Shown: in pieces, positions 3,556-32,944 of the stretch
Layout: each line of letters opens with the position of its first letter
Position numbering within the stretch: position 1 is the stretch's first letter
Notes under the pieces: generated by a model
What the model was told of the DNA's origin: nothing
The model's database searches: none
What the model saw: the letters and a program-made list of their open reading frames with translations, nothing else
Assembly (NCBI RefSeq): GCF_016107395.1
Contig: NZ_JAAIKO010000005.1
Location: forward strand, 62,001 to 126,000
Reading direction: 5' to 3'
DNA length: 64,000 nucleotides
From: Streptomyces fildesensis
Lineage (GTDB): Bacteria; Actinomycetota; Actinomycetes; Streptomycetales; Streptomycetaceae
Translations under genes and position numbers: made by a program

Positions 3556-4455
3556 GTGGAGACGTGGCGATGCACCGGACTGCGCTGGAAGGGCGGCCCG
3601 GGCTCCTGGGAGCCGTGCTGGCAGTGGTCGCACCCCCGGCACGGCGAGCGGAGCAGCCCGGTCCCAGTCGGCCGCCCGCTGGCCCTGGCCGTGGGCCCGG
3701 ACGCGGTGCGGCGCTGTACCGGCGTACAGCGGCAAGGCCGTCACCTGGTGTGCCCGCGCGCGGCGGAGCTGGGCCCGACGGCCCGCCGGGACCTGTGCGA
3801 CGACTGCGCGGCGCTCGACCGGCTCTCGTCCGTCGCCGCCGACACCATGGCCGACGACCCCCGGCCGTACTCGGTGTACCTGGCCTACTTCGGTCCCGGT
3901 CTGACCAAGGTCGGCATCACCGCGGCCGAGCGCGGCGAGACCCGGCTGGTGGAGCAGGCGGCGGTCTGTTTCAGCTTCCTCGGACGCGGTCCGCTGATGG
4001 CGGCCCGTCGTACAGAGGCCTCGCTCGGCGCCGCGCTGGGCATTCCCGACCGCGTGACGGCCGGTGCCAAGCGGGCGGCGCGGTGGGCGCTGCCGCCCGC
4101 CGCCGAGCGGGCCGCCGAACTCCGAGCCCTGTACGAGGCGGTGACCGGACTGCCGGAAACCCTGGACCGGCTGCCCTACGCCCTGGTCGACCACGCGGCG
4201 CTGTTCGGGCTGGAGCCGGAGCCGCCGCGGCCGGCGGCCCGGATCACCGCGCTGGCGCCGGGAACCTCGGTCACCGGCACGGTGCGGGCGGCGGCCGGGA
4301 GCGATCTGTACCTCGATACGCCGGACGGCGGGCTGCTGCTCGATTCCCGGCTGGTCTCCGGCTGGCCGCTCACCACGCCCGCCCCCGGACCGCGCTCGAC
4401 GGCCCCCACCGCTCCCGTGCCCCGGCCGGAGGACGTTCCGGAGCCGCTCTTCTGA
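3556..4455 (+). CDS. DUF2797 family protein
   Basis: This 299-residue protein starts with a GTG and the motif WRCTGLRW. It has several cysteine positions in its first 85 residues (including CPRAAELGPT and LCDDCAALD) that could bind metal. It then has the core YSVYLAYFGPGLTKVGITAAERG, which is characteristic of DUF2797. That core resembles the GIY-YIG-like segment noted for this family. No biochemical role is established. The C-terminal third (after about residue 235) is a low-complexity Pro/Ala-rich tail. It stands alone between a divergent oxidoreductase and a convergent membrane protein. Confidence 0.8.
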   Translation: METWRCTGLRWKGGPGSWEPCWQWSHPRHGERSSPVPVGRPLALAVGPDAVRRCTGVQRQGRHLVCPRAAELGPTARRDLCDDCAALDRLSSVAADTMADDPRPYSVYLAYFGPGLTKVGITAAERGETRLVEQAAVCFSFLGRGPLMAARRTEASLGAALGIPDRVTAGAKRAARWALPPAAERAAELRALYEAVTGLPETLDRLPYALVDHAALFGLEPEPPRPAARITALAPGTSVTGTVRAAAGSDLYLDTPDGGLLLDSRLVSGWPLTTPAPGPRSTAPTAPVPRPEDVPEPLF

Positions 4456-28289: not shown

Positions 28290-29558
28290 TCAGCGGCCGG
28301 CCAGGGCGTCCAGTTCCGCACGGCCGAGCCCGGTGCGGGCGGTGACCTCTTCGAGGTCGACGGCGCCGCAGTCCAGGCCGCGCAGCAGGTAGCCGCTGAG
28401 CGCCTTGGCGGTGGCGGGCTCGTCCATCACATCGCCGCCCGCCTTGGCCACGTACGCCGCAAGCCGGGCCGCGGCGGTGTCGAGGCCCTCGCGGTAGAAG
28501 GCGTAGACGGCGGCGTAGCGGGTGGGCAGGTGGCCGGGGTGCATGTCCCAGCCCTGGTAGTAGGCGCGGGCGAGCGAGCGGCGGACGAGGCCGTGGTGGA
28601 GCCGCCAGGCGTCGTGCACCTGGGCGGTCGGACCGACCGGCAACACGTTCGTGGAGCCGTCGGAGAGCCGGACGCCGGTGCCCGCCGCGGCGACCTGCAT
28701 GACCGCCTTGGCGTAGTCGGCGACCGGGTGGTCCATCGACTGGTAGGCGGCGCTGACCCCGCAGGAGGCGCTGTAGTCGAAGGTGCCGTAGTGCAGTCCG
28801 GTGGCGCGGCCCTCGGCGGCGTCGATGAGGCGCGGCACGGTGGCGGTGCCGTCGGGGCCCAGGATCGACTGGGTCGTCTCGATCTGGATCTCGAAGCCGA
28901 TGCGGCCGGGCGTCAGGCCGTGCGCCTTCTCGAACTCCTCGCAGAGCCGGACCATCGCGCTGACCTGCTGCGGGAAGGTCACCTTCGGCAGCGTCAGCAC
29001 CAGCCCGTCCGGCAGGCCGCCGGACCGCATCAGGGTGCTGAGGAAGATGTCCAGGGTGCGGATCCCGCGGTCGCGGACCGCCGCCTCCATGCACTTCATC
29101 CGGATGCCGATGTACGGGGGCGCGGTCCCGTCCTCAACCGCGGCCGAGACGATCCGGGCGGCGGCCACGGCCGCGGCGTCCTCCTCGGCGTCCGGGCGCT
29201 GGCCGTAGCCGTCCTCGAAGTCGATCCGCAGGTCCTCGACGGGCTCGCGCTCCAGCTTGGCGCGCACCCGGTCGTGGACCGGCCCGGCGAGCTCGTCGCT
29301 CAGGCCCAGCACCCGAGCGAGGGCCGCCGCGTCCGGGGCGTGCTCGTCGAGCGCGGCCAGCGCCTGCCGGCCCCAGCTGCGGACGGTGTCGGCGGTGAAG
29401 GCGTCGGCGGGGACGTAGACGGTGTGCACCGGCTGCCGGGTGCCCGGGTCCCCGGGGTAGCGGCGGGCCAGCTCCGCGTCGGTCGCGGCGAGAGAGGCAC
29501 CGATGCCCTCTCGTACCGCGTCCGCCAACGTCGTGCCGACCGTCTCACCCTGCGTCAT
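28290..29558 (-). CDS. DUF6986 / aldolase-citrate-lyase-like protein
   Basis: This 422-residue protein has a TIM-barrel-like core with DLRIDFEDGYGQRP, YIGIRMKCMEAAVRDRGIRTLDIF, GRIGFEIQIETTQSIL and ATGLHYGTFDYSASCGV. The acidic FEDG and EIQIETT segments resemble the metal-binding strands of HpcH/HpaI and citrate-lyase-beta-like enzymes. It may cleave or form a C-C bond in a 2-keto acid, but the reaction is unknown. A promoter with an operator overlapping the start point lies upstream. It converges on the LacI gene. Confidence 0.75.
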   Translation of the reverse strand: MTQGETVGTTLADAVREGIGASLAATDAELARRYPGDPGTRQPVHTVYVPADAFTADTVRSWGRQALAALDEHAPDAAALARVLGLSDELAGPVHDRVRAKLEREPVEDLRIDFEDGYGQRPDAEEDAAAVAAARIVSAAVEDGTAPPYIGIRMKCMEAAVRDRGIRTLDIFLSTLMRSGGLPDGLVLTLPKVTFPQQVSAMVRLCEEFEKAHGLTPGRIGFEIQIETTQSILGPDGTATVPRLIDAAEGRATGLHYGTFDYSASCGVSAAYQSMDHPVADYAKAVMQVAAAGTGVRLSDGSTNVLPVGPTAQVHDAWRLHHGLVRRSLARAYYQGWDMHPGHLPTRYAAVYAFYREGLDTAAARLAAYVAKAGGDVMDEPATAKALSGYLLRGLDCGAVDLEEVTARTGLGRAELDALAGR

Positions 29559-31585: not shown

Positions 31586-31771
31586 GCCTGCTCTCCTACT
31601 GCTTAGTCTCGTCAACTGCCCTTGCAGGCAGCATAGGCGCCTTAGCGGGGTGGCCCCCCACCGGCACGCACCAGCGTTCCAACAGAAGGTTACTCGCCAG
31701 TACACCCAGCTCCTCACCCGTAAGCAAGGGTGATGAACTGTGACGTTGCCGACGCCACGGCCCGGAACGGG

Positions 31772-32290
31772 TCAGTGGCGCAGCCCGTTGAAGCCGCCCT
31801 GGTGGTAGAGGAGCGGGCTGCCGGGGCCCGTCGGGTCGCCCGCGACGGCCTGTGCCACCACGATCCGGTGATCGCCCGCCGGGATACGGGCCAGCACGCG
31901 GCAGACCAGCCAGGCCGAGACCTCGCCGAGCACCGGCACACCGTGCGGCCCCTCGCGCCAGTCGGTGGCCGGGCCGAACCGGTCGGCGCCGCTGCGCGCG
32001 AAGGTCGCGGCCAGCGCTTCCTGGTGGTCGCCGAGCACATGGACGCCGACGAACGGGACCTCGGACAGCGTGGGCCAGCTGGAGGAACCGGTACTGATGC
32101 CGAACGAGAGCAGCGGGGGTTCGGCCGATACGGAGGTGAGCGAGGTGGCCGTGAAACCCACCGGCCGGTCGCCGGCCGCGGTGATGACGGCGACCCCGGC
32201 CGCGTGGCGGCGGAACACCGAGCGGAAGACGGCCGGGTCGAAGCCGGCGGCGGTGCCGGGAAGGGTGCCGAGGTCGGTCAGGGCAGTCAT
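31772..32290 (-). CDS. Flavin reductase family protein (FMN-binding split barrel)
   Basis: This 172-residue protein has the flavin-reductase pattern: FRRHAAGVAVITAAGDRPVGFTATSLTSVSAEPPLLSFGI, then FVGVHVLGDHQEALAATFA and GDHRIVVAQAVAG. It would supply reduced FMN or FAD to a partner oxygenase, or act as the small component of one. A leader peptide rich in C-terminal cysteines precedes it by 53 bases, which points to control by cysteine supply and hence to a role in sulfur metabolism, for example organosulfonate use; that is inference. Confidence 0.88.
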   Translation of the reverse strand: MTALTDLGTLPGTAAGFDPAVFRSVFRRHAAGVAVITAAGDRPVGFTATSLTSVSAEPPLLSFGISTGSSSWPTLSEVPFVGVHVLGDHQEALAATFARSGADRFGPATDWREGPHGVPVLGEVSAWLVCRVLARIPAGDHRIVVAQAVAGDPTGPGSPLLYHQGGFNGLRH

Positions 32291-32343
32291 GGAGTTGTCC
32301 TTCTGGAGCGGTCGGGCCGGAGGCGAATGGTCGTCTGGGGCGC

Positions 32344-32424
32344 TCAACAACTCGGACAGCGCGCACTCGAATGGCGACCGAGATCGACATCCGCGCGCGT
32401 GTGAAGAAGGGGGTCTCGCGACAT
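32344..32424 (-). CDS. Cysteine-containing leader peptide
   Basis: This 26-residue ORF reads MSRDPLLHTRADVDLGRHSS, then ARCPSC and a stop. It matches the pattern (R-x-HVDL-x-R-x-SSA-x-C) of the Streptomyces putative leader peptides that often precede sulfur-assimilation genes. Both Cys codons are TGT, the rarer codon in high-GC DNA, and lie at the end. There is no SD, and a -35/-10 pair would place the transcript start at the ATG. It probably couples ribosome progress on Cys codons to expression of the flavin reductase. Confidence 0.7.
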   Translation of the reverse strand: MSRDPLLHTRADVDLGRHSSARCPSC

Positions 32425-32430
32425 AACGTC

Positions 32431-32460
32431 AGAGTGACGATGGCAGGCGGGCTCCGTCAA
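32431..32460 (-). promoter_or_regulatory. Candidate promoter of the leader peptide-flavin reductase unit
   Basis: On the minus strand TTGACG (32455-32460) and a weak -10 CACTCT (32431-32436) are 18 bases apart. The expected start is at or within a base or two of the leader ATG, so the leader would be translated from a leaderless mRNA. Confidence 0.4.
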
Positions 32461-32530
32461 GAGCGGCCCGGGATTTGGGATCCCCATCACAAGATCACCG
32501 GTCCGGATGCGCCGGTCCGCGGGCCGGCCG

Positions 32531-32944
32531 TCACACCGCGGCGCCGAGCGCCGCGATCACGTCCACCTTGCGCGGCTGGCCCGCCGCCCGGCGCACCACC
32601 GCTCCGCTCGCGTCGAGCACGAGGACGGTCGGGGTCTTCAGGATCGCCAGCCTGCGGACGAGTTCCAGATGGGCCTCCGCGTCGATCTCGACGTGGGTCA
32701 CCCCTTCCACCATGGTGGCGATCTCGTCGAGCGTCCGCCGGGTGGCCCGGCACGGGGCGCAGAAGGAGCTGGAGAACTGCACCAGCGTGGCGCGCGCACC
32801 GAGCGGCCCGCCGATCTCGGCAGCCGTCAGCCGCTCCTGGCCGTCCTTCGTCCGCACCCGAATCCTCCCGTTCCGGCGCTGGTGCACCAGGCCGAACGCG
32901 CTCGCCGCCGCAAGGACAGCGAGGCACACCACCAATCCCGTCAT
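32531..32944 (-). CDS. Thioredoxin family protein, membrane-anchored
   Basis: This 137-residue protein has an N-terminal hydrophobic helix (residues 3-20) and a thioredoxin fold with the active site SSFCAPC (Cys62 and Cys65). The cis-Pro segment is KTPTVLVLD. The CAPC centre is between thioredoxin and TlpA types. It is divergent from the DUF4395 gene, and the pair is often seen together in actinobacteria. The SD GGAGG precedes the ATG. Confidence 0.9.
   Translation of the reverse strand: MTGLVVCLAVLAAASAFGLVHQRRNGRIRVRTKDGQERLTAAEIGGPLGARATLVQFSSSFCAPCRATRRTLDEIATMVEGVTHVEIDAEAHLELVRRLAILKTPTVLVLDASGAVVRRAAGQPRKVDVIAALGAAV

Follow-up and report, generated by a model that had tools for sequence, protein, structure and literature searches.

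A conserved leader peptide with an invariant UGU codon and its predicted role upstream of a flavin reductase gene in Streptomyces fildesensis

A small leader ORF at flavin reductase loci

The window analyzed here is a 64,000-nucleotide stretch of the Streptomyces fildesensis genome. At positions 31772..32290, its minus strand carries a gene for a 172-amino-acid flavin reductase (FR), assigned to Pfam family PF01613. The best match among solved structures is the flavin reductase domain protein 2qck (E 7.8e-36). The NCBIfam models that FR matches describe reductase components of two-component monooxygenases and other flavin reductases, and none is reached at its cut-off. At all 80 homologous FR loci a thioredoxin-like gene lies upstream and a lysophospholipid acyltransferase-like gene is present, and EtfB is encoded downstream of FR in 53 of the 55 full-length loci. 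Downstream of the etf genes, the window encodes a DUF6986 protein (28290-29558, minus strand), which also matches the HpcH/HpaI aldolase family.

The leader is a 26-codon ORF on the minus strand (32424-32344, stop included) that encodes MSRDPLLHTRADVDLGRHSSARCPSC. The ATG occupies 32424-32422 and the stop codon 32346-32344, 53 nucleotides before the FR ATG at 32290. The peptide ends with R-C-P-S-C, and both Cys codons are TGT (Cys23 at 32358-32356, Cys26 at 32349-32347). A first-pass annotation of the window had described this ORF, its ending, the two TGT codons and the spacing to FR, and the sequence and translation agree with it on each. No Rfam family matches the window at its gathering score.

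The leader is intact at 69 of the 80 homologous FR loci. Our first script recognized 67 of these, and the remaining two (L004, L032) have D-V-D-F in place of D-V-D-L. At the other 11 loci the leader is lost or decayed: leader and promoter are both missing at L029, L033, L038 and L069, promoter remnants are kept at L045, L070 and L071, and decayed leaders are found at L044, L063, L064 and L081. The four complete losses (near 3900-4001 in these loci) put the reductase close behind the thioredoxin-like gene and are useful natural mutants. A dN/dS of 0.295 across 60 leaders indicates selection at the protein level, and codons for invariant residues vary synonymously (four codons for R10, two for D14 and two for S20) while the peptide is unchanged. 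Together, the intact leaders, the synonymous variation and the dN/dS confirm that the small ORF is real and beyond chance. The earlier proposal of a leader peptide, which a lack of conservation of the small ORF in relatives would have overturned, is therefore supported by the homologous FR loci. The 69-leader set used below consists of the window and 68 other loci, and one intact leader (L079) was missed by the regular expression. Because the FR sequences are related, counts from them are not independent, and kinship inflates all of them.

The second Cys position is occupied by Cys in 20 of the 69 leaders and elsewhere by Val, Ala, Arg, Gly, Thr or other residues. The two-Cys ending stressed by the first-pass annotation is thus retained in its first Cys, which is conserved, and not in its second (32347..32349, minus strand). 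Since the second Cys has been dispensable in evolution, the sensor would be a single TGT codon behind the conserved peptide.

Predicted leader promoter and sequestration of the ribosome-binding site

Upstream of the leader ATG on the minus strand are a -35-like TTGACG (32455..32460) and, 6 nucleotides before the ATG, a -10-like CACTCT of the form nAnnnT (32431..32436). TTGAC lies exactly 36 nucleotides upstream of the leader start in 65 of the 69 leaders, and the A and T of the -10 are likewise kept in 65 of 69. This geometry fits a leaderless transcript in those 65 leaders, and we infer that transcription starts at the leader ATG; the same start had been suggested from the window alone, and the computational comparison is consistent with it. 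Leaderless promoters are reported for S. lividans in the portion of PMC8079986 covered, from which our promoter rules were taken and with which the leader promoters fit. A generic sigma-70 scan found no leader promoter, and CACTCT shares only two bases with TATAAT. The FR promoter pattern occurs once in its own genome, at the FR locus, and so marks no wider regulon. An inverted repeat, CGTCA-CTC-TGACG (32427..32439, minus strand), covers the -10 and is a possible operator. Similar CGTCA-N3-TGACG repeats are seen in the FR promoters, with all five arm positions complementary in 46 of the 69 and four of them in 18; they may be a repressor site. In one promoter (L053) both arms are changed, to CGCCA/TGGCG.

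The FR Shine-Dalgarno (SD) region, recognized from sequence and alignment, is AGAAGGACA (32296..32304, minus strand), and two leader segments are complementary to it. The first, anti-SD 1, is CCCTTCT (32405..32411, minus strand) in codons 5-7, which includes the rare Leu codon CTT; codon counts, alignment and folding point to it, and its CCTTCT complements AGAAGG. The second, anti-SD 2, is TGTCC (32354..32358, minus strand), made up of the Cys23 codon and the CC of Pro24; it complements GGACA of the ribosome-binding region and is suggested by alignment and codon counts. CTT makes up 2.5% of Leu codons, yet 67 of the 69 FR leaders use it. In a hand-picked alignment of 40 sequences (39 of 56 listed references plus the window), several stretches do not vary at all, among them CTTCT in codons 6-7, TGTCC in codons 23-24, the TGA stop codon and, within the ribosome-binding site, GAAGGA. 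The complementarity extends to TCCTTCT with AGAAGGA, and from the same 40 sequences RNAalifold chose the 7-bp helix UCCUUCU:AGAAGGA. AAGGA is followed by C in 19 of 20 distinct FR sites, versus 4 of 30 sites of other genes.

Folding was evaluated for 64 of the 69 leaders. The anti-SD helix is part of the minimum-energy fold at 50 of these 64 loci, with a mean pair probability of 0.72. In the window, a 6-bp version (CCUUCU:AGAAGG) closes a multi-branched structure; taken as a whole, the leader RNA of the window has an unremarkable stability (z -1.06). When the best leader:SD helix is compared with those of synonymous leaders, the fraction of nulls that are as good has a median of 0.020 and a mean of 0.081 over the 64 loci. 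The SD is unpaired with a probability of 0.10 in natural leaders versus 0.39 in synonymous ones, and the natural value is lower at 56 of 64 loci. For the window the corresponding values are 0.036 and 0.341, and none of 25 nulls is as low. It is thus predicted that the rare Leu codon of the FR family builds an anti-SD that hides the FR ribosome-binding site. Such sequestration by leader codons 5-7, which is absent from the first-pass annotation, is the likely lever of control.

Because both arms hardly vary, covariation lends the anti-SD helix no support: two cells are changed on both sides, a value reached in 162 of 500 shuffles, and both lie in the outer extension of the helix rather than in its 7-bp core. 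Anti-SD 2 shows no covariation. The anti-SD test did not reach significance in the other multi-member leader families, where a mean fraction of 0.39-0.87 of the nulls did equally well. The mechanism cannot be generalized on this basis, and an anti-SD inside the leader was rejected as a general rule. These families mostly have longer gaps between leader and gene, and they may use other structures.

A simple footprint model, applied to the same 64 leaders, suggests how the site could be opened. Blocking of the first 18 nucleotides, as by a ribosome at the start, would raise SD accessibility to 0.43, and a queue of ribosomes reaching back to the start would raise it to 0.46. A lone ribosome stalled at Cys23 leaves the site closed in this model (0.064 versus 0.10). 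Opening would thus require a queue or an initiating ribosome, and stalling should act by ribosome crowding on the 26-codon leader.

The wider leader family and its TGT codon

Leader peptides of this kind are already known as NCBIfam family NF042934 (cis_reg_atten, 'putative leader peptide'), which has the same core peptide. A homologous FR-locus leader, MPPELLLHGRVHVDLARYASARCPGV, scores 30.4 bits against a cut-off of 27. The cut-off is reached at six places in the window's own genome and by 7 of 10 relatives scanned; two mycobacterial families give weaker matches to several of them, in one case at the family's cut-off. The model misses the window peptide, which falls short of the 27 bits, matches no family at E<=10 and does not appear among the own-genome matches at E<=1. 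As far as it was covered, the NF042934 entry gives neither a target gene nor a codon rule nor a mechanism.

Profile A2 was built from 12 leaders, one of which is the window peptide, with its R-x3-D-x2-R-x5-C core and TGT-encoded Cys. The profile has 13 matches at E<=0.5 in the window's own genome. Within the genus, 35 of 35 genomes are matched, with 4-16 matches each at E<=0.01 among the matches listed, and in a class sample 133 of 197 genomes are matched at E<=0.001 among the matches listed. A loose DNA pattern for own-genome leaders was discarded as too loose, with 40 matches versus 19 in a reversed control. Regions were fetched for 80 of the genus and class matches listed; as these were mostly the best-scoring and not a random draw, the gene tally covers a selected part.

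In the window's own genome, the genes preceded by a leader include those for nitrite/sulfite reductase, an SsuC-like permease, cysteine dioxygenase, a luciferase-like monooxygenase and rhodanese, a ThiS-family cysO-like gene with a cysteine synthase-like gene, and an acetyltransferase gene with no clear sulfur link. The finer names cysO and SsuC are our own assignments, and the list leaves out C182:13659, C182:6290 and C128:66099. Of 97 genus leaders, mostly best-scoring, 96 received a script-assigned gene, and these genes form 13 clusters: sulfite reductase (33), flavin reductase (15), luciferase-like (12 and 8), cysO (7), SsuC (7), cysteine dioxygenase (6), ABC permease (3) and five singles, among them an arylsulfotransferase and an NADPH-dependent FMN reductase. 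Downstream start codons were set by a crude script, with L204 and L136 among the doubtful cases, and cluster member L222 is doubtful by eye. The fetched leader relatives mostly precede sulfur-type genes. Relatives before sulfite reductase, cysO, SsuC-like, cysteine dioxygenase, rhodanese and luciferase-like genes support the tie to sulfur metabolism that had been proposed for FR.

Several individual leaders have features of their own. In L255 (near 1000-2200), the leader precedes a gene for an NADPH-dependent FMN reductase of PF03358, unrelated to PF01613, which is suggestive of convergent use for flavin supply. In L246, the leader precedes an arylsulfotransferase-like protein and contains TCCTTC, which complements GAAGGA in the ribosome-binding site that follows. 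One leader-like peptide of the window's own genome (L142/L310, C182 near 6290, minus strand) carries Gly where the motif Cys would be and lies outside the counts; it is back to back with a Cys-bearing leader at C182:7328 and is perhaps a lost or rewired sensor. Most of the listed sulfite reductase leaders of the L129 family keep the uncommon codons TTG-GTA-GGT, and most have two or three copies of TGTCC, perhaps as an RNA read-out of their own.

The motif Cys is encoded by TGT in 97 of 97 genus, 69 of 69 FR and 49 of 49 class-wide leaders, and in all 184 distinct leaders when the sets are pooled. The regular expression behind the genus and pooled counts demanded Cys at the motif position, so Cys is conserved by construction, but the codon is not, and since the leader searches were made at the protein level, codon choice was not selected for. 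For the genus count, 106 loci gave 97 leaders from 96 loci (L163, L166, L220 and L252 are without a match, and L157-L162 repeat own-genome loci already counted). For the class-wide count of 49 loci, any residue was allowed at the motif position and Cys was required nearby; L267, L271 and L272 are without a new match, and some of the 49 leaders belong to the window's own family.

Among the remaining Cys codons of the genus leaders, TGC occurs 73 times and TGT 13 times, and where the FR leaders have the second Cys, it is TGT in 16 and TGC in 4. In large ORFs, TGC versus TGT is 93 versus 22 in the window and 268 versus 33 in the family loci; the TGT background is 11.7% in FR loci and 11-19% overall, against about 81-89% TGC. 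Elsewhere in the same leaders, two-codon residues with C or T in third place take T in 39 of 184 cases for Asp, 45 of 181 for His/Asp and 34 of 147 for Ser (AGY). If each of the 13 gene clusters is taken as one unit against a background of 11.7%, the chance of TGT throughout is about 8e-13, although the clusters are related by descent and the background could reach 19%. The base after the motif TGT is C in 159 leaders, T in 20, A in 5 and never G, whereas G follows 324 of 774 background Cys codons; this absence may partly reflect the favored next residues Pro, Arg and Cys. In the portion of the literature covered, the TGT rule is not described and no flavin reductase is placed under such a leader; the rule therefore seems new, with a prior mention possible in the primary mycobacterial paper, which lay outside the scope of the search.

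Proposed cysteine-sensitive attenuation and alternative readings

Computation establishes a conserved protein-coding leader, its promoter geometry, a predicted sequestration of the FR site, an invariant UGU and the company of sulfur genes, and we consider cysteine-sensitive translational attenuation their best reading, and a fairly probable one. The leaderless transcript would begin at the leader ATG. In the resting mRNA, CCUUCU of codons 5-7 would pair with AGAAGGACA and hide the FR ribosome-binding site, with UGUCC at the first Cys codon assisting. When charged Cys-tRNA is scarce, ribosomes would slow at the single conserved UGU (codon 23), possibly helped by the conserved nascent peptide R-x3-D-x2-R-x5-C. 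Ribosomes would then queue back to the start codon and cover CCUUCU, and the FR site would be freed, so that low cysteine would raise expression. FR would be a source of reduced flavin for FMNH2-dependent monooxygenases that liberate sulfur from organic sulfur compounds, and some genes annotated as such monooxygenases appear to bear the same leader. The first-pass reading is partly supported by computation, for its leader, its predicted leaderless promoter and its sulfur tie, and not for the role that it gave to the second Cys.

Alternatively, the peptide itself may be the main agent, in that the conserved sequence, while in the exit tunnel, would halt the ribosome at UGU, the state of cysteine or Cys-tRNA would tune the stall, and RNA pairing would serve only as the read-out. 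Among 117 leaders outside the FR-locus set, located before many kinds of genes, D at -9 and R at -6 are found in all 117 (the regular expression required D at -9 and R or Y at -6), R at -13 in 116, and H at -11 in 107. A peptide so conserved would be needless for a plain codon attenuator, and three leaders (L275, L284, L301) terminate at the motif Cys itself. The spacing of key residues before the stall site in TnaC and other arrest peptides looks similar. Peptide conservation could equally reflect descent and later spread, or a role of the RNA, and we regard arrest as a tentative possibility. It is also conceivable that UGU is kept for its third base, which would pair within a local leader hairpin (Asp GAY with GUC), and not for decoding. 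RNAalifold draws GAC:GUC in the FR set, G never follows TGT in the 184 leaders, and TGC variants of FR leaders fold less stably in 34 of 57 cases and more stably in 19. Yet natural leaders gain no stability over synonymous ones, as a median fraction of 0.42-0.57 of the nulls is equally stable. Outside the FR set, a change to TGC lowers stability about as often as it raises it (30 versus 25 of 61, and 18 versus 18 of 42). The hairpin was rejected on this folding as a general reason for TGT, and we consider it unlikely as the explanation.

Transcription attenuation within the leader, by Rho or an intrinsic terminator as in classical amino acid operons, is somewhat more doubtful still. Rho-dependent control has been proposed for mycobacterial cys leaders, and called weak, in the portion of PMC1262725 covered. 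Against it, the region 31700-32700 has no terminator-like site (shuffles average 0.4), so the intrinsic terminator that follows classical attenuator leaders is missing there. The gap from leader to gene is also short, at 42-86 nucleotides where assigned (leaving out two doubtful assignments of 19 and three loci with none), and the bases that are conserved correspond to the ribosome-binding site. Finally, FR could be under ordinary promoter-level control through the inverted repeat at the -10, and the leader could be a vestige; the five-pair repeats in 46 of the 69 promoters and the double change in L053 speak for this. A vestige would decay, whereas this leader is under protein-level selection and its codon choice hides the ribosome-binding site, and such control seems very improbable.

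Translational attenuation has parallels in other bacteria. In mycobacterial polycysteine leaders the ribosome-binding site of the next gene is reportedly sequestered, and this feature of mycobacterial attenuators is predicted here as well. The mycobacterial polycysteine sORFs (NF042936 Ms4527A, NF042933 Ms5788A) are leaderless, as the FR leader is predicted to be, and likewise have Cys near the end and a sulfur-related gene downstream. They have contiguous Cys codons, in contrast to the C-P-S-C of the window, in which one Cys is conserved, always as TGT, behind a conserved peptide; contiguous Cys codons are not found in the FR leader, and nothing in the window's own genome exceeds the NF042936 cut-off. 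For these mycobacterial leaders, described by Canestrari et al. 2020, cysteine availability is reported in PMC9031893 to control downstream translation, and this control has been called translation attenuation (PMC13236596). The cys-operon leaders of Mycobacterium and P. acnes and the cbs leader of B. longum (PMC1262725) are also short ORFs with Cys codons near the stop and no obvious terminator, but they have runs of Cys codons, and the part of that paper covered does not name Streptomyces or flavin reductase for cysteine. uORFC-8-2, found before cysS in Rhodobacterales, is likewise a Cys-codon leader for a Cys-related gene, and differs from the FR leader in its tandem Cys codons, dominant UGC and a U run as for an intrinsic terminator, as described in the part of PMC8632094 covered. 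Eight S. lividans leader peptides are listed in the covered part of PMC8079986, with none assigned to cysteine. One of them there, metL (Table 4), ends with GARCMCRRMCAF and has three Cys, and it may answer to cysteine too.

More broadly, and as a tentative proposal, one UGU behind an arrest-type peptide, L-x2-R-x-H-[VI]-D-[LF]-x-R-x-[AS]-[SG]-A-x-C, might form a class-wide actinomycete cysteine sensor. The wobble-read codon would do the sensing, each target would evolve its own RNA read-out (such as the FR anti-SD in codons 5-7), and one reductase would serve scattered FMNH2-dependent monooxygenases that scavenge sulfur.

UGU and UGC are generally read by a single Cys tRNA, and selective charging among several tRNAs would then not explain a preference for one of them. 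The retention of one synonymous codon in 184 of 184 leaders raises the testable question of whether wobble decoding of a single codon can serve as an amino acid sensor. An otherwise generic flavin reductase also gains a likely job in sulfur scavenging and a control switch that can be tested.
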